Below, in pieces: positions 2 through 9,970 of a DNA stretch of 10,164 bases; position 1 is the first letter of the stretch; every line of letters starts with the position of its first letter. Source of the DNA: Desulfocapsa sp. (GTDB lineage: Bacteria > Desulfobacterota > Desulfobulbia > Desulfobulbales > Desulfocapsaceae); NCBI GenBank assembly GCA_029942265.1, contig JAOZTO010000058.1, positions 1 to 10,164 of the forward strand. The letters run 5' to 3'. The notes under the pieces were generated by a model. The model saw nothing but the letters and a program-made list of their open reading frames with translations, made no database searches and was not told the origin of the DNA. Made by a program: the position numbers and the translations under genes.

Positions 2-1513
2 CAGAAAAGGTTGTTGTTGATCGGTGCCGGAGACGCTGCTGAGAATGTACTAAGGGAGCTTCAAAACAATAACAAGGTTCCCTACACTGCAGTTGCTCTT
101 GTTGATGATGATCATTCAAAAACCGGTTTAAAGATACACGGCGTCCCTATCGTTGGCAGTGTTGATGATCTCAACGAGCATATAATCCGGTTTAGAATCG
201 ACGAAGTCCTGATATCTATTGCGTCAGCAAGTGGAAAAGAAATGAAAAGACTCGTTGGGTTTTGTCTGGAAAGTAAAATTCCTTACAAGGCATTACCTGG
301 GTTAGGCGAATTAATTGATGGTAAGATTTCCTTAAAATCAATCCGTGATATTTCTTATGCAGATCTTCTGGGCAGAGAAGAAGTGATACTTAATCAGAAT
401 GAAATTGGTGATTATCTCAAGGAAAAAATTGTTCTGGTAACTGGAGCTGGAGGAACCATTGGTTCTGAGTTATGTCGACAGATTCTCCGTTTTGCCCCGG
501 AACAAATTATTCTTTTTGACGCAGGTGAAGAAAATTTATATTCCATTCAGATGGAACTTCAACACGTAAAAAACTTTCACAAAATTGTTCCTGTTCTTGG
601 TAAGGTTCAGGATCAAGGTCTTCTCGAGCTGGTCTTTACCCAGTACAAACCAACTGTTGTTTTCCACGCAGCAGCCTATAAACATGTTCCTTTAATGGAA
701 AAAAATCCCTGGCAGGCTATACACAACAATGTTTTTGCCGCTCAATTACTAATCGAGACATCTATCGTGCATGGAGTACACCGTTTTGTACTGGTCTCAA
801 CCGACAAGGCAGTACGCCCTACAAATGTAATGGGTGCATCAAAAAGACTGACTGAATTACTGATGCTGGCGTATGGTAAAAGTTCATGGGATGGGAGTTT
901 CAGCCCTACTCGTCAAAAATTACAACACGACAAAAGCCACCCCAGTTCCTCTATTCATAACACCATCTTTATGGCAGTTCGATTTGGAAATGTTCTTGGT
1001 TCGTCCGGGTCAGTAATACCGTTATTTAAACGACAAATAGAAAATGGCGGCCCAGTCACTGTCACCCACCCCGACATAACCAGATATTTTATGTCCATCG
1101 AAGAAGCAGCCCAATTAATTTTGCAGGCTGGAGCCATGGGCAAAGGTGAAGAGATTTTTATTTTAAAAATGGGTGAGCCTATCAAGATAGCTCAAATGGC
1201 AAGAGATCTTATTAAGCTTGCCGGACGTGAGCCTGACTCTGAAATAGAAATAAAATATACTGGCCTGCGTGAAGGCGAAAAACTATACGAAGAATTGATC
1301 ACTGAAGGAGAAGGGATCGTCGACACTGACCATAAAAAGATTATGGTTCTTCGAGGTAACGGAAAAAGCTGTGCTGATCTCGCCACAGGCTTGGAACAAC
1401 TCCAGCAAAAGACAAGATCACATAATGGCCACGCCATCAAAGATATCCTACAGCAACTTATCCCAGAATACACTCCAGATTATGATTCGAAATCGATTAG
1501 AAACAACAAATAA
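2..1513 (+). CDS. Nucleotide-sugar 4,6-dehydratase, WbpM/PglF/CapD family (5' partial)
   Basis: This enzyme family converts UDP-GlcNAc (or a related UDP-HexNAc) to a 4-keto-6-deoxy sugar, an early step in making surface-polysaccharide sugars. Numbering from the TTG at 11, a first Rossmann motif (GAGDAAENVLREL, about residues 5-17) is followed by a second one, TGAGGTIGSEL (144-154), then AAYKHVPLME (221-230), STDKAVRPTNVMGASKR (263-279) and VRFGNVLGSSGSVIPLFK (323-340). The position of the usual SDR catalytic Tyr is Met (M274, with K278), as is known for the WbpM/PglF group. The reading frame is open to the window edge and gives QKR before LLLIGAG, and full-length members usually carry four N-terminal membrane helices. 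The true start is therefore upstream and the TTG at 11 is not a start. An extra segment of about 27 residues (291-317), rich in Ser, His and Lys, sits just before the VRFGNVLG motif, where relatives I know are shorter. The gene converges on the export operon and probably ends another polysaccharide transcript. The family call is firm; the exact sugar substrate cannot be read from sequence. Confidence 0.93.
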   Translation, partial: QKRLLLIGAGDAAENVLRELQNNNKVPYTAVALVDDDHSKTGLKIHGVPIVGSVDDLNEHIIRFRIDEVLISIASASGKEMKRLVGFCLESKIPYKALPGLGELIDGKISLKSIRDISYADLLGREEVILNQNEIGDYLKEKIVLVTGAGGTIGSELCRQILRFAPEQIILFDAGEENLYSIQMELQHVKNFHKIVPVLGKVQDQGLLELVFTQYKPTVVFHAAAYKHVPLMEKNPWQAIHNNVFAAQLLIETSIVHGVHRFVLVSTDKAVRPTNVMGASKRLTELLMLAYGKSSWDGSFSPTRQKLQHDKSHPSSSIHNTIFMAVRFGNVLGSSGSVIPLFKRQIENGGPVTVTHPDITRYFMSIEEAAQLILQAGAMGKGEEIFILKMGEPIKIAQMARDLIKLAGREPDSEIEIKYTGLREGEKLYEELITEGEGIVDTDHKKIMVLRGNGKSCADLATGLEQLQQKTRSHNGHAIKDILQQLIPEYTPDYDSKSIRNNK

Positions 1514-1762
1514 CTACCCAGAAGCGTAGAAGCCCGGTCTCTTGGGCGATTCCCACCCCTTTGAGGTAAATATTCGGCTAGCACCCCATCTTCGTTTGAT
1601 CCGGCTTGTTCACATATGAACAAATATAGTTCACAAGCCGGATCAAACGAACCTGGGGCACTATCCAAACATTTACAGTTCAGTAGTTGAGCCTATTTTC
1701 GCCCCCAACCCGAATGTTTACCATTTGAGCATAGTAGCAGAATAAAAATATGTTTATTAAAA
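1514..1762. other. Convergent intergenic region
   Basis: This stretch of about 250 bp separates the stop codons of two convergent genes. It holds the 19-bp inverted repeat described separately and a weak A/T-only hairpin at 1741-1758 (AATAAA / TTTATT) close to the end of the minus-strand operon. I see no tRNA, no convincing open reading frame with a ribosome binding site, and no classical GC-stem plus T-run terminator. GC content seems higher in 1520-1660 than in the rest of the spacer, which may mean that part has a different origin, such as a decayed mobile element. Confidence 0.6.
1591..1651. repeat. Perfect 19-bp inverted repeat around a 23-nt loop
   Basis: The arms 1591-1609 (TTCGTTTGATCCGGCTTGT) and 1633-1651 are exact reverse complements. 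After two mismatches the pairing resumes outward for five more pairs (1584-1588 with 1654-1658, ACCCC type), giving a structure of about 75 nt. The 23-nt AT-rich loop contains GTTCACA twice in direct orientation if the arm edges are included (1608-1614 and 1629-1635). There is no T-run on either side, so it does not look like a standard intrinsic terminator. It could still stop both convergent transcripts, act as an mRNA 3'-end stabiliser, or be a small palindromic mobile element. Confidence 0.85.
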
Positions 1763-3193
1763 TCATTGCGTATCAAACCGATAATTTAATTCCAGAATTT
1801 CAAGTTTGTTTCTTTGGTTGTTTAATAAAAAGGATATCTGTCCCTGTCCCTCATCCTTACTACCATCAAAGTATTCTATTAGTATATGAAATCGTCCATC
1901 AGCAATGATACCTCTGCGTTCCTTGTTCCATTTTGACAGAGCAATAGAAAACAGAATTGTTTTAGATTTTTGAAATAATTCAGAATAGGTAGGGAGAGTT
2001 TCCACCAGTGGTTTTCCATTTTCCGTTGCGTGTATATTATAGAAATGGCTGAATGCAAGCAAGTCTTTATTTTTATAAGACTCAGTGTATGCAAGCAAGA
2101 ATTGCTCTACTCTCTTCTGTAGTACTGCTTTCCGTTCTTCATCTGTGCGATCAAGCTTTGGAGGAACCACTATCGGATTCTTTTTTGCAACTGCAACTGA
2201 AGATTTATAAGGTTTTGCTGTTAAGATCTTTTTGGGAGTTCGGGAAATTGTGATGGGTTCATGATCTGTATTTGGCTCGTTTTTCTTCACTACTGCACTG
2301 GATTGCTGCGGTGACAACATATCTTTCGATTCGTATGAAACAGGATCGATTGTTTTTGACTGCGTAGCACCTTCATCTTTAATGATACGTTCTGTCTTGC
2401 TTTCACTACTGACAATTTCGATATTTTCCGTAGGTTCTTTATCTTGTATTTTTTCAATAGGTATTTCTTTGGGAGCTTCTTTTATTTCTTCCTCCTCCGG
2501 GATCAAATCTTCAACCAGCAATGCTGTCTCAGGTGGGATAAATGCTGAATGATTGTTTTGCAACCCGACAATCATTGCACGATTTCTATAATTCACTGCT
2601 ACAACCAAGCTAACGATAACCATCAAAATTGTAATGGCAGCAAACCACAATAAGTTCCTTTTCTTTTGTGTACCACTGATCTCGCTCTTTCTCTCGACTC
2701 GCCAGTTTTGTTCGGAAACAGGAGTGAATGGCTGTTGAGGTTCTTCAACATCCCCATCTAATAGCGCATGATATGCCTTGGTCATCTGAACAAATTTTTC
2801 ACCATTTTCATCCGCACCAGACTCGGCTGTATCAGGATGGTATTTTCTACTTAGTTTTCGATATGCCTGCCGGATCTCCTCACTGCTTGCATCTTCTTCC
2901 ACTCCAAGTACATCATAATTATTGTCATTTTTAAGTTCCGGCTGAAAGATTGAGACCACCTGCTCAACCTCATACAGGAATCCACGTACATCAACAGTAT
3001 GTTTATGGCATTCTTCGTCCACCCAGGCAATAATTTGCTGATCGTTGCGGTTATTACTTGCAACAAGTTCTTTACATACAGAGAGCATACCACTGGTATC
3101 TGCAACAAAGGCAATCATTGCGTCTGTTGAAACATTCCCCGCATATTTTTTTATAAGGCGAGATGCCAATTGTTTATCTTGTATGGTGAACAT
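1763..3193 (-). CDS. Membrane-anchored J-domain protein with NTF2-like C-terminal region
   Basis: Probable Hsp70 co-chaperone tied to the inner membrane. Residues 1-90 form an all-helical N-terminal region that I do not recognise with certainty; it is somewhat TerB-like. Residues 92-146 are a J-domain: [20 protein letters not shown], then KYHPD with the HPD tripeptide at 119-121, then [12 protein letters not shown]. One transmembrane helix follows at about 181-201, preceded by KKR, so the J-domain should face the cytoplasm. Residues 220-350 are a low-complexity Pro/Glu/Lys/Ser linker. Residues 355-476 ([20 protein letters not shown], then [20 protein letters not shown]) resemble the NTF2-like/SnoaL-type fold seen at the C terminus of some envelope proteins, and would be periplasmic. 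The ATG overlaps the upstream stop by one base (TAATG). I see no strong ribosome binding site, so translation is probably coupled to the upstream gene. It is the last gene of the operon. The J-domain is certain, the NTF2 call moderate, and the role in polysaccharide export is inferred from position only. Confidence 0.85.
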
Positions 3194-4413
3194 TATTTTT
3201 CATCAAGGATAGTGTAAATTTCACTGGACTCTGCAATTTCAAGATTGGCCAGCCAAATATCACCGCCCAGTATATTGTCAATATGAGTACTTTCTTTTCT
3301 GCGTAATCGGACAACCATAGCATCGCAATCATCTGGCACTTGGATTAGCAGAAAAATTTCAGTCCAGTCCTGATCACTACTGAACATCTTAGTTGTGTTA
3401 CGAGGTGCTTTACATTTATATCCGTACACTTCAAAAAATGGTAATTGATCGGTGGTAAGATTTTTCGTTTTCACCTCACCTTTTAAAGCATAAACTCGCC
3501 CCCCCTGCAATGGGACAATCTGCATGATATTGTGAAGATTAATGTTTTTTTGACGTTTAAAATGAAGCTTAAAGGCATAACGGGGTTCTTTCTTTGTTGG
3601 CTCTGTAATTTGCCATGTTGCACCTTTATTTTTTCCTATGCGCCACCCAAATGCTGTTTGTAATGGTTTTTTGTTGAAATCACCGTTAAAAAGGAATGGA
3701 GGATTGTTAAAATAGTTTTTCCAAATAGTTGCGGCACTTGCTATTTCACTTTTCCCGATCAGCATATTGATAAAAGCCAGCGTATCTTTTTCCTGACGGT
3801 CAAATGTTTTTGTTCTAAAATTTTCCCAAAGGATCAGCCCCTGCTCCACCTTTCTTTTACGAGTTGCATATTGGAACAGATATTCCAACGATTCTTCTCC
3901 TAACTGTTTTTGTAGTTCTTTCGCATCTGGCCACAATGAAAAAGCCATTCGCAATGCATTATTACGTGTTTTCCCAGGAATTTCTGCAATAATATAGGAA
4001 AGATCAGAGGCAAGCACATCATTTCTACCAAACTGATAGGCAACTAACACTTTATCCCAACGCCAACGCTTTACATCTTCAGATAATACGCCTGTATAGT
4101 CTAATATTGCATTAGCATTTTCGTTTTCATTCTGATCAACCTGTAATTCTGCAAGGCCAAGCCAAGCCGGAATATAAACAGGATTAACAATTAAAGCCTG
4201 TTTATACAGGTCATTGGCTTGTGTAAGATCTGCATCAAAAAGATGTTTTTGTTTACCAAGCCAAGTTAGTATATAAGGGTTACTTTGAAACGCATGGTGC
4301 GAATCCATACTTTCATTGCGGCTATATTCTGTCTGTTCATAAAGAGCAAAACGTATCTGCACAGTAGCAAGTGCGCACAAAATAGTTACGCATAAAAAAC
4401 GTAAGAACAGCAA
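3193..4413 (-). CDS. TPR protein with C-terminal carbohydrate-binding-like (CBM4/9-like) region
   Basis: Likely an envelope protein of the polysaccharide machine. Residues 2-19 are a hydrophobic N-terminal segment (signal anchor or signal peptide); neither nearby Cys (8, 13) sits in a good lipobox. Residues about 58-105 match the tetratricopeptide pattern ([20 protein letters not shown], then GLAELQ). Residues 120-235 are mostly helical and may hold diverged repeats. The C-terminal half, about 240-397, starts with [11 protein letters not shown] and continues with W/F-rich beta segments ([45 protein letters not shown]), a pattern like the jelly-roll CBM4/9 fold, whose members begin with a similar NGDFE motif. 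The start is TTG. AAGGAG lies six bases upstream, and the TTG follows the previous stop codon directly, so this start is well supported. Periplasmic TPR proteins are common in exopolysaccharide synthases (AlgK, PelB), where they act as scaffolds; that parallel is an inference. Confidence 0.8.
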
Positions 4414-6711
4414 TTAACTCTCCTTCCCATACTCATAATTATAGGCGTAATACTTATATCCCCCGTAGGAGCTATATCCATACCCTTTTTTCTGCCCTGA
4501 TTTGTTGATGATTGCTCCAAGTATTCGACCACCAACATTAGTCAATGCCTTGCGAAAATGCCTAACGCCTTCACGTGGCGTATCACCTTCAACGGCAATC
4601 AAAATCACGCCATCAGCCATATTTGCCAATACAAGAATTTCTGCAAATCCCTGGTACGGAGGGCCATCAAGAATGACTTTATCATATTTTCTTGTTGCCA
4701 TGTGTAGTAACTGACGCATCCGTTTAGAAGAAAGCATTTCTGCGGGATTTGGTGGTAATGGCCCACTACTGATAAAGTCAAGGCCCTCAAAATCGGTTTT
4801 GGTGATTACATCGCTGAATTTTTTCATACCACTCAGCACAGAGGAGAGTCCAGTACCTTTTTCACCATTTTTAAATACACGATGTAAGCTTGGCTTTCTT
4901 AAATCACAATCAATCAGTAAGCAGGTTTCATCATCTGCAAGATATGAGAGACAAGCGTTACTTGACAAAGAACTCTTACCAGCACCGGGCAAGACACTTG
5001 TAACCAGGATCACCTTTGGCGGATCATCAGCAACTGAAAGGCGAACCGCTGTCATGGTGGTACGAAATGATTCTGCGACAGGTGAACGGGGGTCATTGAA
5101 GAATTTTAGTGCCATCATTGTCCGATCATCAACAGATTCTTTATCGTAGGGAATAAGACCAAGAACAGGAATATGAAACCGATCGGCCATTTCATCAGGG
5201 CTCTTAATGGTATTATCAAAATATTCCAGAAGAAAAGCTGCGCCAATGCCTGCAAATAAGCCAAGAACCATACCAAGCAGGAGATTTAAAGCAACCCGTG
5301 GTTTATAGGGAAAGAGCGGTGGTCTAGCGCGATCGATAATCTGAATATTTGTAACAGCTGCCCCAACAGTTGCCTCAATTTCTTTAGAGCGTTGCAATAA
5401 ACTCTGATAGATAGTCTTACTACTTTCAACTTCACGTTGATATATTTTGTATTGTGTTGCTTTTTCTTCAAGATCAAGTGCTCTCTGTTTCTGGATATCT
5501 GCCTGCTCTGTGAGGTATTTTTCTGTCTTTACTGCTGTTTTGTAATCATTTTTAATTGAGTTGATAATATTTACACGCTCTGCTTCAACTCGACTAACCA
5601 ACTCCTCCATTTTGGCATTAATTTTTTGCATTCCAGGATATCCAGGTTTAAACGTTGTACCCATATCTTCATATTCTGCCTTTAATGTTGCATACTTACT
5701 TCGCAAATCCTGAACAAGAGGACTCTGAGAGAGTTGGGCAAATTCTTTTAAATCCATCTCTCCAACCTGTTCGTATCTTGCCTCTGCTGAAATCTTTGCT
5801 GATCGTGCTTTGGCCAGTGAATCGTTGAGCACTTCCATCTGTCGAAGAACCATATTAAGCTTAGGATCCATTGAAACAACACCAATCTTTCGTGCAAACT
5901 TCTGCAATGCAATTTCTGATTTTTCAAGCTTAATTTGAGCAGAAAGAATCTGCTTACCCAGAAAACGTGATGCGTCACGGGATCGTTGTAAACCACCATC
6001 CATGTGCATATTTATAAATTCATCCATCGCAGCATTGGTAATTTCAGCTGATAAGACAGGATCAGGTGTTTCAAATGTTAATTCGATGAGTTCACTATTT
6101 CGAATTGGGCTAACTTTAAAACGATTCTTAAAGCTTCCAAGGATTCGATCTTGGAGGATATGTTGTTTTGCATCATCTGAAAGAATATTAACAGAATCGT
6201 TGGACTTATCGGCACGTACAAAATTCTTAATGGTATCAAGCAATCCTACAGCATCAGACCCTTCGGCTTTCTCACCAATTTTAGAGTTAAAAACTTTATT
6301 TTGATTTAACTCCAGCAGATCCATTACTCTCAATGCCAATTGTTCACTTTGAAGTAACTTCACCTGAGTTTGTTGAAACTCCATGGTTTTAAGAGCATTT
6401 CCTTCAAGACTATCAAATTTGGTAAGGTTGGATGATTGGGCAGATACCTTCAGGGAACCGCGAGCTTTAAACTGTGGTGTCATAGAAAACGTAATGAGGG
6501 CAACAGAAAAAAAGATAAAAACCAGCGATGTGACAACAACCCATTTTCGCCTGATCAACACATCCAGAAGATCTCTAAGATCAATCTCATCTTTAAATTC
6601 AGGTACAACTTCACGTACCTCAACACTAGGTAGTTGTTGCTGGTTTTCACGAACAAGTAATTGATTGTCCGATTCAAGATACTGGTTTTTATTGTTATTT
6701 AGCATGGGCAT
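4414..6711 (-). CDS. Wzc-like polysaccharide co-polymerase with C-terminal BY-kinase
   Basis: An inner-membrane tyrosine autokinase that controls chain length and export of the polymer. Residues 42-77 (DEIDLRDLLDVLIRRKW then the first membrane helix, about 57-77) begin the Wzz domain. Residues 240-450 form the long periplasmic coiled-coil region. The second membrane helix (about 472-496) follows the Pro-rich RPPLFPYKP motif typical of co-polymerases. The cytoplasmic kinase has Walker A at about 573-581 (LPGAGKSSL; many relatives have GEGKS), Walker A' LLIDCDLRKP (598-607) and Walker B KVILDGPP (678-685). The tail, residues 744-761, holds nine tyrosines (GYGYSSYGGYKYYAYNYEYG), the usual autophosphorylation cluster. 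Wza-type partner and phosphatase genes are in the same operon. The start overlaps the phosphatase gene by 17 nt and lacks an obvious ribosome binding site; ATG at 6711 or the third codon ATG at 6705 are both possible. The single-polypeptide kinase is the form common in Gram-negatives. Confidence 0.95.
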   Translation of the reverse strand: MPMLNNNKNQYLESDNQLLVRENQQQLPSVEVREVVPEFKDEIDLRDLLDVLIRRKWVVVTSLVFIFFSVALITFSMTPQFKARGSLKVSAQSSNLTKFDSLEGNALKTMEFQQTQVKLLQSEQLALRVMDLLELNQNKVFNSKIGEKAEGSDAVGLLDTIKNFVRADKSNDSVNILSDDAKQHILQDRILGSFKNRFKVSPIRNSELIELTFETPDPVLSAEITNAAMDEFINMHMDGGLQRSRDASRFLGKQILSAQIKLEKSEIALQKFARKIGVVSMDPKLNMVLRQMEVLNDSLAKARSAKISAEARYEQVGEMDLKEFAQLSQSPLVQDLRSKYATLKAEYEDMGTTFKPGYPGMQKINAKMEELVSRVEAERVNIINSIKNDYKTAVKTEKYLTEQADIQKQRALDLEEKATQYKIYQREVESSKTIYQSLLQRSKEIEATVGAAVTNIQIIDRARPPLFPYKPRVALNLLLGMVLGLFAGIGAAFLLEYFDNTIKSPDEMADRFHIPVLGLIPYDKESVDDRTMMALKFFNDPRSPVAESFRTTMTAVRLSVADDPPKVILVTSVLPGAGKSSLSSNACLSYLADDETCLLIDCDLRKPSLHRVFKNGEKGTGLSSVLSGMKKFSDVITKTDFEGLDFISSGPLPPNPAEMLSSKRMRQLLHMATRKYDKVILDGPPYQGFAEILVLANMADGVILIAVEGDTPREGVRHFRKALTNVGGRILGAIINKSGQKKGYGYSSYGGYKYYAYNYEYGKES
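4420..4425 (-). promoter_or_regulatory. Ribosome binding site deciding a TTG start
   Basis: AAGGAG on the minus strand lies six bases before the TTG at 4413-4411 and inside the last codons (Gly-Lys-Glu-Ser) of the kinase gene. No other start codon near the beginning of the TPR gene has such a signal, so it selects TTG. Confidence 0.8.
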
Positions 6712-7438
6712 TCATTGTAATTTTTTGAGGATTATCGATGCATAAGGTACAGTGAAGTTTATCACCAAGGATATCGTTTATCTGTTTCCATTCTGCTACA
6801 TCCAACGGTTTTCTATTCTCAACAGAATGAGCATCCGACGCTAGATAATGGACACTCTTTGCTGCAATAAACTTCATTGCCGTCTCTTTACATACTTCTC
6901 CAAATTTTCCGAGAAGACTACCACTGTTTAGCTGTACTTCCAAGCCGCTTTGTATGGCTTCATAAAGAGCAGTCTGTTTTTTCTGGAACGCTTGAATTCG
7001 TTCAGGATGCGCCATAATCACCTTATGCCCTTGCTCCATAAACTGTCTTGCGCATTGCAAGAGATCATACTGCGAATCTTGAAAGGAAGGTTCAAGAAGA
7101 TAATAATTGCTGTTTGCCAATGATTGCAAAATCCCCTTTTCAAGCCTGGCCATCAATTTTCCATGATAGGCTATTTCCATACCAGGATGAAGCTTCAAGG
7201 CTATATTTTGTTCGTTAAAATAAGTTTGTACTTCTTCTGTTTTTTGTCTAACTTTTTCACGATTTGCTGCCCAGGCAGTCCCTGGGATAAAGTGCGGTGT
7301 TGCAATTATTGTATGGATACCCAATGCCACATAACAGCGTGCCATGGAGGCACTCTCTTCCATATTTTGGGGGCCATCATCAATATCTGGTAGAATATGG
7401 GTATGGATATCGATAAATTTACTAATGTCAGGTATCAT
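6695..7438 (-). CDS. PHP-family protein-tyrosine phosphatase, CpsB/CapC/YwqE type
   Basis: Predicted manganese-dependent phosphatase that dephosphorylates the tyrosine cluster of the partner BY-kinase. All family metal-binding motifs are visible: FIDIHTHILPDIDDGP (His12, His14, Asp20/21 region), TPHF (His49), HPGMEI (Glu88), IMAHPER (His144) and LASDAHS (Asp202, His204). Length (247 residues) is normal for the family, and there is no signal peptide, consistent with cytoplasmic action. The ATG at 7438 has GAGGG eight bases upstream. It begins 12 nt after the Wzy-like gene and its last codons overlap the kinase gene by 17 nt, which ties phosphatase and kinase expression together. In many Gram-negatives this job is done by a low-molecular-weight phosphatase (Wzb); here the PHP type, best known from Firmicutes capsule loci, takes that place. 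Confidence 0.95.
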   Translation of the reverse strand: MIPDISKFIDIHTHILPDIDDGPQNMEESASMARCYVALGIHTIIATPHFIPGTAWAANREKVRQKTEEVQTYFNEQNIALKLHPGMEIAYHGKLMARLEKGILQSLANSNYYLLEPSFQDSQYDLLQCARQFMEQGHKVIMAHPERIQAFQKKQTALYEAIQSGLEVQLNSGSLLGKFGEVCKETAMKFIAAKSVHYLASDAHSVENRKPLDVAEWKQINDILGDKLHCTLCIDNPQKITMNAHAK

Positions 7439-7450
7439 GTTCAGTACCCT

Positions 7451-8902
7451 CTAATTTTTTTTCTGTGGATTTTTTCTTTTTCCATGCCATTCAAGGCCAT
7501 AAGAAACAAGGGCTGCCAGCGTAACTACATAAAAGAGATTAGCGGGTAAACGCCAGCCAAAATCAACTATTCCATGGACGAAAAAACCGACTAATCCGCA
7601 AAATGCGCCACCTGCAATAATAACCGGAGCACCCAATTGTACTCCTTCCGTTCTGTTATTAATTATTCTAAAGAGCTTACCACCGGCTAGAGACATTGCA
7701 ACAGCAAGCCAGATAAAAAACAGTGTTGCCATTGGTATTCCAAGCTCTATAGTGAACTGAATATATTCATTATGTACCTTATCCCAATTCACGTTAGGGG
7801 AGAATCCTTTTAAATAGACGGCCGAGAGTAACGAGTAGGAACCAAAACCTATGCCTGTAAAAACATGATCCATCATCATTGGTATACTTGCCATATACGC
7901 TTCAAGCCGCGTTGCTCCCGACTGACCAATGGAGTCAAACCTTGCAAAAACGGTGTCTAGCCCCAGCATTGCACCAAAAGCTGACATAAATAAGAGAAAT
8001 AAGCCTATAAAAAGAACTTTTATTTTTCTAGATACCGGTAAATAAAAATTAAGCAATATCATAACAAGCAACATGGCAATCATTCCACCTCTGGAGAGAG
8101 AAAAGAGAACCGATAATATCATAATTCCTGTTGCCAGAAAGAAAAGAGGAGCAGATTTTGCCTTTTCATCCATCCTTCTTATTCGCTCTTTGATCGATTT
8201 TTTTCTTTTTTTCCCAGATACCGATGTCAAATAGCTTTGTAAATAAACACTTGCCGCCGCCAGTGCCAATGGCCAACACATATTTAAAAATGACGCGTAC
8301 TGGTTTTTGTAGATGATTGTACCGTATGCCGCTCGGCCTCCTGTAACAGGAAGCCAGAGAATACCTATTCGGGGACTGAGAAACTGGAAAATTCCGTATA
8401 GAGCCTCAAGGACACCAACAACTATAATGATAAGGTAAATTGTATGAAAAAAGGTATCTTTGTGCGTTAACAGCGCTTTTAATCCACAATAATAGAGCAA
8501 CAACGCAATGAGTAACAGTGTGGGGGCAATACTGAGTTGGCCATGTTCACTTAATGTGACATACTGCTGGTTGGTATGAGCAAGTGTATTCACCATCATT
8601 ACTCGCTCTGCTCTAGCAGGAGAGAGTATTTCTATCCATGACAAGGGAAGAGGTACAGACTGGAATATGCAGTACAACAAAAGTAACAACAGAGGAAAAA
8701 GCCAGCGCTTTTGTATTAAAGGTGTGTTGGTCCAGGAAAATGGGTATGCAAAGCATAAGTAACTACCTATACCAATATAAACTATTGCAGAATACGTGGC
8801 ATAAACAATGGGATGAACAGCTCCAAATATGAATGGAACTGTAAACAACACAAAACAGATAATAAAGAAAGGTGCATTACTAATTTGATTTTTGATATTC
8901 AC
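7451..8902 (-). CDS. O-antigen ligase/polymerase (Wzy_C, WaaL/Wzy) family membrane protein
   Basis: A polytopic inner-membrane protein expected to join lipid-linked repeat units (Wzy) or ligate them to an acceptor (WaaL). About a dozen hydrophobic segments span residues 10-470. Family marks are FSLSRGGMIAMLL (about 267-279, Arg271), the periplasmic loop GATRLEAYMASIPMM with GIGFGSY (about 329-356), and KVHNEYIQFTIELGIP (375-390, His377), with a second conserved HGIVDFGWRLP (443-453). A Lys/Arg-rich cytoplasmic loop lies at 231-249. The likely start is GTG at 8902; I see no good ribosome binding site before it, so the exact start is open. It lies 27 nt after the Wza-like gene. Sequence alone does not separate polymerase from ligase, but the neighbours (export pore, co-polymerase with kinase) favour a polymerase. 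Confidence 0.92.
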   Translation of the reverse strand: MNIKNQISNAPFFIICFVLFTVPFIFGAVHPIVYATYSAIVYIGIGSYLCFAYPFSWTNTPLIQKRWLFPLLLLLLYCIFQSVPLPLSWIEILSPARAERVMMVNTLAHTNQQYVTLSEHGQLSIAPTLLLIALLLYYCGLKALLTHKDTFFHTIYLIIIVVGVLEALYGIFQFLSPRIGILWLPVTGGRAAYGTIIYKNQYASFLNMCWPLALAAASVYLQSYLTSVSGKKRKKSIKERIRRMDEKAKSAPLFFLATGIMILSVLFSLSRGGMIAMLLVMILLNFYLPVSRKIKVLFIGLFLLFMSAFGAMLGLDTVFARFDSIGQSGATRLEAYMASIPMMMDHVFTGIGFGSYSLLSAVYLKGFSPNVNWDKVHNEYIQFTIELGIPMATLFFIWLAVAMSLAGGKLFRIINNRTEGVQLGAPVIIAGGAFCGLVGFFVHGIVDFGWRLPANLFYVVTLAALVSYGLEWHGKRKNPQKKN

Positions 8903-8929: not shown

Positions 8930-9970
8930 TTACTTACTTGATGTGGTGGATTTAGGATCACGATATGTAAACCCGGTTCCCAAAAAACCGACCGAGATTC
9001 CGGAACCGGAAGTCATAAGTCCCATGCTACTTGATTCTGCAAAAATCACATCCTGATCCTGCAAAAAGAGTGTGTCTCCCATTCCACCCTGTAAATCACT
9101 GTAACGAAGTGACACAATAGCACGTTCACGATCTGGCCCCATATAACGAATAAGTTTGATTCCATTATCATCAGCATAAGAAGCAAGTCCCCCTGCCAAA
9201 GCAAGAGCTTCGGTGATGGTCATTTTTCCTTTTAGAGGATAATTACCAGGTTTCCGAACAGCACCATCAACAAAGCATTGTCCCGATTTGGCGATAAAAA
9301 TTACATCTCCGCCAAGAATTACCATATTCTCACGCATGTTTCCCTGCTGTAGCAATGATTCAAGGTTGATTGCATAGCGCTTTCGTTCTTTGGTCTCTGG
9401 ATCTTCTCTTGTTACATAAGCAATTGCTCCAGCTTTTTCAGATAGTCCATTACCAACGGCAAGTACGTCAAGCAATCTTCTCCTGGTCACGTAATCATAA
9501 GTGCCTGGTTTATTAACTGCCCCCACGAGAGTGATCTGTTTACTAACATGTTCTTTAATATGAATAATAACATGAGGATCATGAATATACTTTTCCTGAT
9601 AAAGCGATTCTATTTTCTCTTCAGCTTCTGCAGTGGTCAGATTAAAAACATCAACGTTATCCAACAATGGCAAGCTTATCTCACCACGCGATGATACTCG
9701 AACCTCTGTATCTAATTCATCACTCTCATAGACCTTTACTGTGAGTAAATCACCAGCTCCTAACAGATAATCACCTGTACCGGTATCGCCACTCAATGTG
9801 TCAGGCGAAAAAACATCTTTTTGACTCCTGTTAAACGTCTTCTGTTTCTCTTCATATTGCTGCCTGAATTGCTCGAGATTGGTGGTAGCTTGAAATTGTT
9901 CATCCGCACATCCACTAAGTAGCAGGATGGGGAGAAGAAAATATAGCTGTACTATCCTTTTTAGCAACAT
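8930..9970 (-). CDS. Wza-like outer-membrane polysaccharide export lipoprotein
   Basis: Forms the outer-membrane/periplasmic channel for the polymer. Residues 1-20 are a lipoprotein signal peptide with lipobox LLSGC (Cys21 would be the lipidated residue, followed by Ala-Asp). The Poly_export domain spans about 66-138 (YLLGAGDLLTVKVYESDEL, then SSRGEISLPLLDNVDV). Two SLBB domains follow: about 144-225 (ITLVGAVNKPGTYDYV) and 231-310 (CFVDGAVRKPGNYPLKGKMT, then ITEALALAGGL). The C-terminal 30 residues are Gly/Ser-rich. It lacks the C-terminal amphipathic membrane-spanning helix that is clear in E. coli Wza, and it is a little shorter than Wza, like many GumB/Wza relatives. The ATG has GAGAG four bases upstream. 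It is the first gene of the operon, directly after a hairpin terminator. Confidence 0.95.
   Translation of the reverse strand: MLLKRIVQLYFLLPILLLSGCADEQFQATTNLEQFRQQYEEKQKTFNRSQKDVFSPDTLSGDTGTGDYLLGAGDLLTVKVYESDELDTEVRVSSRGEISLPLLDNVDVFNLTTAEAEEKIESLYQEKYIHDPHVIIHIKEHVSKQITLVGAVNKPGTYDYVTRRRLLDVLAVGNGLSEKAGAIAYVTREDPETKERKRYAINLESLLQQGNMRENMVILGGDVIFIAKSGQCFVDGAVRKPGNYPLKGKMTITEALALAGGLASYADDNGIKLIRYMGPDRERAIVSLRYSDLQGGMGDTLFLQDQDVIFAESSSMGLMTSGSGISVGFLGTGFTYRDPKSTTSSK

Follow-up and report, generated by a model that had tools for sequence, protein, structure and literature searches.

The window, i.e. the whole 10,164-nt stretch of a Desulfocapsa sp. contig analyzed here, contains a polysaccharide export operon whose last gene (1763..3193, minus strand) encodes a 476-aa membrane protein with a J-domain and an NTF2-like domain. 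We propose, with middling confidence, that it is a single-pass membrane J-protein (class C Hsp40) dedicated to one Wza-Wzc subtype, bringing DnaK to the Wzc-Wza complex. The comparative data that most strongly suggest such a DnaK adaptor are its restriction to one Wzc subtype, the retention of the HPD tripeptide in the operon copies (bar that of locus L182) versus its loss outside the operon, and a motif in the cytosolic tail of Wzc.

The operon consists of six co-directed genes on the minus strand. These encode a Wza-type OPX export lipoprotein (8930..9970; Pfam Poly_export and SLBB), a Wzy_C polymerase/O-antigen ligase-like protein (7451..8902; Pfam E 2.4e-16), a CpsB/CapC PHP-type phosphatase (6695..7438; Pfam CpsB_CapC, E 3.6e-52), a Wzc-type polysaccharide co-polymerase/BY-kinase with a Tyr-rich tail (4414..6711), a TPR protein (3193..4413), which is the partner gene of J, and finally the J protein. 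The stop codon of the TPR gene overlaps the start codon of the J gene in the sequence TAATG (3191..3195, minus strand). With an OPX protein, a PCP-2a protein with kinase and Tyr-rich tail, a phosphatase and a Wzy_C protein encoded together, the locus represents a Wza-Wzc (PCP-2a/BY-kinase) operon; no Wzx flippase was found among the seven window proteins scanned. A WbpM-like gene (2-1513, plus strand), its 5′ end cut by the contig, converges with the J gene, whereas in 11 related loci WbpM lies downstream of J on the same strand. A long, imperfect inverted repeat with 44-nt arms (84% complementary) is located between the two convergent genes of the window (1566-1676).

Five segments were distinguished along the J protein, all encoded on the minus strand: an N-terminal five-helix cytosolic domain (residues 1-86; 2936..3193; model pLDDT 91.5), the J-domain (residues 92-146; 2756..2920; Pfam DnaJ, E 3.7e-17, 62.6 bits vs a cut-off of 27.8) with an intact HPD tripeptide (residues 119-121; 2831..2839), one membrane helix (residues 181-201; 2591..2653) within a longer model helix (174-215), a disordered charged linker (residues 215-339; 2177..2551; pLDDT <50) and a periplasmic NTF2-like domain (residues 351-476; 1766..2143). 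The structure model of the full protein has a mean pLDDT of 72 and a pTM of 0.33, with block means of 91-96 (residues 1-80), 74-90 (91-140), 89-91 (181-200) and 88-98 (351-476). The J-domain, membrane helix, linker, NTF2-like C-terminal region and TAATG coupling described in an earlier note were thus all confirmed by Pfam, the model or the sequence itself. That note had also proposed fold checks of both ends of the protein: an NTF2-like fold was matched across the entire C-terminal domain, while a fold search of the PDB with the N-domain (residues 1-91) gave no convincing match. Lysine and arginine are more abundant on the N-terminal side of the membrane helix in 77 of 80 homologues of at least 400 aa (the other 3 being ties), and the predicted location of the J-domain is the cytosolic side of the membrane.

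DnaJ is the sole Pfam family above its cut-off in this protein, and all listed NCBIfam DnaJ and curved-DNA-binding models fall below theirs, as in class C Hsp40 proteins; neither Pfam nor NCBIfam revealed a DnaJ zinc finger or a C-terminal substrate-binding domain. By these profiles the window protein is classified as a class C J-domain (Hsp40) protein, predicted to stimulate a partner Hsp70. The Pfam match stops at profile position 55 of 63, so that helix IV of the J-domain is unmatched, which speaks against a co-chaperone. Assignment to DnaJ itself was rejected (equivalog TIGR02349, 55.7 bits vs a cut-off of 377.2), as was assignment to the DjlA family by its NCBIfam equivalog (29.5 bits vs 162; E 5.5e-7, residues 39-121), and Pfam detected no TerB domain beside the J-domain. 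DjlA shares with the window protein a membrane-anchored J-domain. It has, however, an N-terminal membrane segment and a C-terminal J-domain, whereas here the J-domain precedes the membrane helix, the NTF2-like domain follows it in the periplasm, and the gene lies in an exporter operon. Csd6 of Helicobacter and Bd1075 of Bdellovibrio are periplasmic proteins that combine an NTF2-like domain with another, catalytic domain; the NTF2-like domain of the window protein is instead tethered across the membrane to a cytosolic J-domain.

A database search returned 24 homologues that share the full architecture (P0002-P0025), weaker matches being to the J-domain alone. Named relatives belong to Desulfocapsa, Desulforhopalus, Desulfobulbus sp. 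Tol-SR and the cable bacterium Candidatus Electrothrix gigas, whose genome (L032) carries the same module. Within the order, the J protein occurs in 12 of 69 genera; in the genus of the window it was present in just 4 of 19 other genomes, which counts against our preferred explanation.

The genomic surroundings of the J gene are highly conserved. In 38 of the 39 carriers of the order (window included), the J gene is immediately preceded by a co-directed TPR gene, which in 37 carriers itself follows a Wzc-type BY-kinase gene; the exceptions are contig ends (G120 for both genes, G006 for Wzc). The architecture sought beside Wza/BY-kinase genes of other genomes is recurrent. If the start codon nearest to the TPR stop is taken as the J start, 26 of the 37 related loci, the window aside, show an overlap of the two codons. 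A search of 395 genomes drawn evenly from the phylum (match threshold E 1e-18) gave a match in 188, and most of the matches listed were confined to the J-domain. Those listed that reached past it, 19 loci outside the order, were fetched; two are cut pieces (L172 and L176), 15 of the 17 testable ones have Wzc and/or TPR as operon neighbors, also where the gene order is permuted, and two do not (L178 and L180).

A J-domain gene merely sitting in the operon by accident would agree with the presence of the J protein in just 39 of 257 genomes of the order and with the two extra-operon copies. This explanation is nevertheless extremely improbable, and as far as genomics reaches it is refuted by the synteny counts: the gene is in the operon in all 38 genomes of the order with a readable upstream neighbor, and among the matches listed it keeps this placement in most testable loci elsewhere despite the permuted order. 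The earlier note had named homologues lying mostly away from polysaccharide genes as the sign of a chance association; the reverse was found, and gene order argues that the link of the J gene to polysaccharide export is not accidental. Two further observations concern the surveyed loci. The Wzc gene of L113 (G106) is divided into two open frames by a frameshift or an assembly error, and a Fic/DOC-domain protein is encoded near the polysaccharide operon of a Desulfocapsa MAG (L025:14936-15586).

Wzc matches at E 1e-60 were obtained in 107 of the 257 genomes of the order, and two groups can be distinguished by their identity, one of 43 to 100% (43 genomes, counted by hand) and one of 27 to 37%. 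The J gene is present in 38 of the 43 genomes with the former subtype, the remaining five being cut by contig ends (G076, G090, G135, G059 and G133), and in none of the 64 genomes with other Wzc subtypes only. The 39th carrier, G118, is outside the 107, as its Wzc is a 101-aa piece at a contig end. In G180, a second copy of the J-linked Wzc subtype stops 260 bases before the contig end, and the copy of G120 is contig-cut. Since J tracks the Wzc subtype, the J protein belongs to one exporter subtype. Together with the operon tie, this tracking lends good genomic support to the suggestion of the earlier note that the J protein serves the Wzc-Wza complex.

The TPR partner family was found in 42 genomes of the order, and in 38 of these it adjoins the J gene. 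Among the four with a TPR gene alone, three (G076, G090 and G135) lose the downstream side to a contig end. The remaining one, G121 (L163), has the TPR gene and that of the Wzy_C protein; no Wzc, CpsB or J gene was found next to these two, which weighs against our explanation, and a partial loss of the export module is possible there. A distant full-length TPR relative in L175 carries a CBM_4_9 carbohydrate-binding domain (E 3.2e-9), and its C-terminal half aligns to that of the window TPR protein. CBM_4_9 is weakly matched in 3 of 19 nearer members of the family (best E 0.0037), and the window copy gave no CBM match at E 0.01.

The HPD tripeptide of J-domains is required for the stimulation of Hsp70 and not for the fold. 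Of 91 distinct homologous sequences gathered in total, which are not independent of one another, 83 include the J region, and HPD is retained in 80 of the 83. The tripeptide is lost in L178 (EPQ), L180 (RPD) and L182 (ISA). The first two are second copies outside the operon, and the operon copies of the same genomes retain HPD; L182 is an operon copy that has kept its place and architecture, a case that counts against the DnaK adaptor. The extra-operon J-NTF2 copies (L178:8425-10341 and L180:8246-9673) also lack the N-domain, one of them has tandem NTF2 domains, and they are surrounded by genes for FtsH, an amidohydrolase and other non-exporter proteins. The eight sequences without a J region comprise three cut by contig ends (L071, L172 and L176) and five small NTF2/SnoaL-like proteins encoded between J and CpsB, two in L175 and one each in L183, L184 and L185; these five lie just past the J gene, and their presence resembles a duplication of the periplasmic domain.

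Such a pattern might also be produced by a structural or sensor subunit, a fixed part of the exporter anchored through the NTF2-like domain and through the TPR/CBM partner, in which the J-domain, hardly active on DnaK, would be no more than a Wzc docking module or a relic. The NTF2-only proteins adjoining J, the loss of HPD from the operon copy L182 and the strong conservation of the C-terminal domain among the homologues are in line with it. We nonetheless consider a structural subunit rather unlikely, given the almost general retention of a tripeptide that serves Hsp70 stimulation.

A candidate docking site for the J protein was recognized in the cytosolic N-tail of Wzc. This motif, LPSVEVRE in the window (6610..6633, minus strand), lies just before the first membrane helix and has variants such as LPSVDYQE, LPSTRVYE and LPSEEVLD. 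The pattern LPS..[VYFLI].[EDG] was drawn after viewing the tails of J-linked Wzc proteins and then applied alike to all Wzc; it matches 40 of the 45 J-linked Wzc that could be read and none of 20 Wzc of other subtypes, 11 of them from genomes that also carry the J operon. N-domain and motif are present together in 39 loci (the window, 31 others in the order and 7 beyond it), and no locus has the N-domain without the motif. The motif without the N-domain was found in a single locus (L070/G022), a clean in-frame loss compared with its sister G142 that argues against docking. Five loci (L175, L177, L182, L184 and L185) have neither; they may be one lineage, in which case one event could underlie the correlation. 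Some N-domain matches outside the order are weak, those of L170, L179 and L181 (E about 2e-5 to 2e-6) and of L173 (E 0.006), which also counts against it. The co-occurrence suggests that the N-domain of J may read the cytosolic tail of Wzc.

A full-length DnaK is encoded in all six relatives tested. The Hsp70 hits in the MAG of the window (89% complete) were limited to an atypical protein of 770 aa and a single match that is weak and partial, which speaks against a DnaK adaptor; because all six relatives have a full DnaK, we attribute the absence of a canonical one to the incompleteness of the MAG. The 770-aa Hsp70 (L186:1489-3801) has a CxxC..CxxC zinc-ribbon-like segment, and G111 has a frame of similar length (802 aa) with an Hsp70 match.

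On these grounds we propose the following course of events for the DnaK adaptor. The cytosolic half of the J protein (the N-terminal helical domain and the J-domain) would dock on the tail that Wzc, the BY-kinase, exposes to the cytosol, with the LPSxxVxE-like motif as the probable site. From there it would pass Wzc or a client bound to Wzc on to DnaK, and DnaK may then help to build, remodel or dismantle the Wzc ring between export rounds. The periplasmic NTF2-like domain, on its flexible linker, would most likely pair with the co-encoded TPR/carbohydrate-binding protein, and this pairing would couple the action of DnaK to the polymer in transit. The conservation of HPD, the topology and the Wzc-tail motif are in keeping with a recruitment of DnaK, with an effect on the kinase ring and with polymer sensing in the periplasm. 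DnaK recruitment itself, the docking of the N-domain on the Wzc tail, the contact between NTF2 and TPR and any effect on polymer export are inferred, and the client could be another operon product instead. In its boldest form, which we think improbable, the protein would be the built-in Hsp70 adaptor of a class of bacterial exporters, whose new helical domain reads the LPSxxVxE-like Wzc tail while the NTF2/TPR-CBM pair reads the polymer, DnaK dismantling the Wzc ring after each chain as auxilin/Hsc70 do with clathrin.

A closely related system is Wza-Wzc of E. coli, which has the same core, an OPX protein and a PCP-2a BY-kinase with a Tyr-rich tail that forms an octamer governed by phosphorylation (PMC12881504). 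Its Wzc octamers are reported to form on dephosphorylation and proposed to dissociate on autophosphorylation, in a cycle that the authors themselves call hypothetical, and glycans are recognized by the Wzc jellyroll domain (PMC12881504). Octamer cycling and glycan recognition, as reported there, would be plausible points of action for the J-domain and the CBM-type partner, respectively. Neither “DnaK” nor “chaperone” appears anywhere in the main text of that paper; compared with the E. coli system, the window type adds a TPR/CBM-type protein, the J protein and the Wzc-tail motif.

The earlier note knew of no described role for such a protein in polysaccharide export. An operon-encoded J protein of an exporter was likewise not found in the literature searched, but Hsp70 and J proteins more generally have been linked to polysaccharide. 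In Nostoc punctiforme, hormogonium polysaccharide is reported to require DnaK1/DnaJ3, which are proposed to affect polysaccharide production via an unidentified protein (PMC9239167). They resemble the present case as a dedicated Hsp70/Hsp40 set for polysaccharide production; they differ in being tied to type IV pilus motors, and in the passages considered here no Wza-Wzc operon and no protein of J-TM-NTF2 architecture is mentioned. The Hsp70-like protein StkA of Myxococcus xanthus is described as restraining the level of exopolysaccharide, a similar Hsp70-type control, although StkA itself is of the Hsp70 type rather than a J protein and its place of action is upstream of the Dif pathway (PMC4319316). 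DjlA, in turn, acts on envelope systems (PMC11709261, PMC10754441), among them the Rcs phosphorelay of capsule synthesis. Hsp70 control of polysaccharide already has precedents in these reports.

The DjlA and DnaK1/DnaJ3 reports are precedents for the proposed DnaK adaptor and bear on two other explanations as well. Caulobacter DjlA is reported to raise efflux by the trans-envelope pump AcrAB-NodT, for which the HPD histidine is required, to associate, directly or not, with AcrA and AcrAB-NodT components, and to lower the aggregation of AcrA (PMC10754441). The window protein might similarly perform DjlA-like quality control, feeding new or misfolded Wza, Wzc or Wzy to DnaK before or during insertion, with no specific role in the kinase cycle, and its position in the operon would suit such a private chaperone; its restriction to one Wzc subtype, its periplasmic NTF2 domain and the Wzc-tail motif suggest a more specific link, however, and we judge quality control unlikely. 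In E. coli, overexpressed DjlA is reported to weaken the IgaA-RcsD interaction and thereby to switch on the capsule phosphorelay (PMC11709261). The J protein might accordingly report the state of the exporter to a separate regulator and not act on the exporter, a route that the intermediary proposed for DnaK1/DnaJ3 would also allow. Such envelope signalling appears very improbable: the recurrent neighbors identified are exporter genes, with few of the other neighboring ORFs annotated.

A J protein gene beside one exporter type in sulfate-reducing and cable bacteria suggests that this exporter has its own link to Hsp70. For capsule and biofilm-polymer export, the cycle in which Wzc alternates between octamer assembly and disassembly is so far hypothetical (PMC12881504). 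A J protein hard-wired to one exporter subtype, together with the docking motif proposed for its Wzc, would open chaperone control of this cycle to direct testing. The J protein would then connect the cytosolic Hsp70 system with the periplasmic state of a trans-envelope machine.
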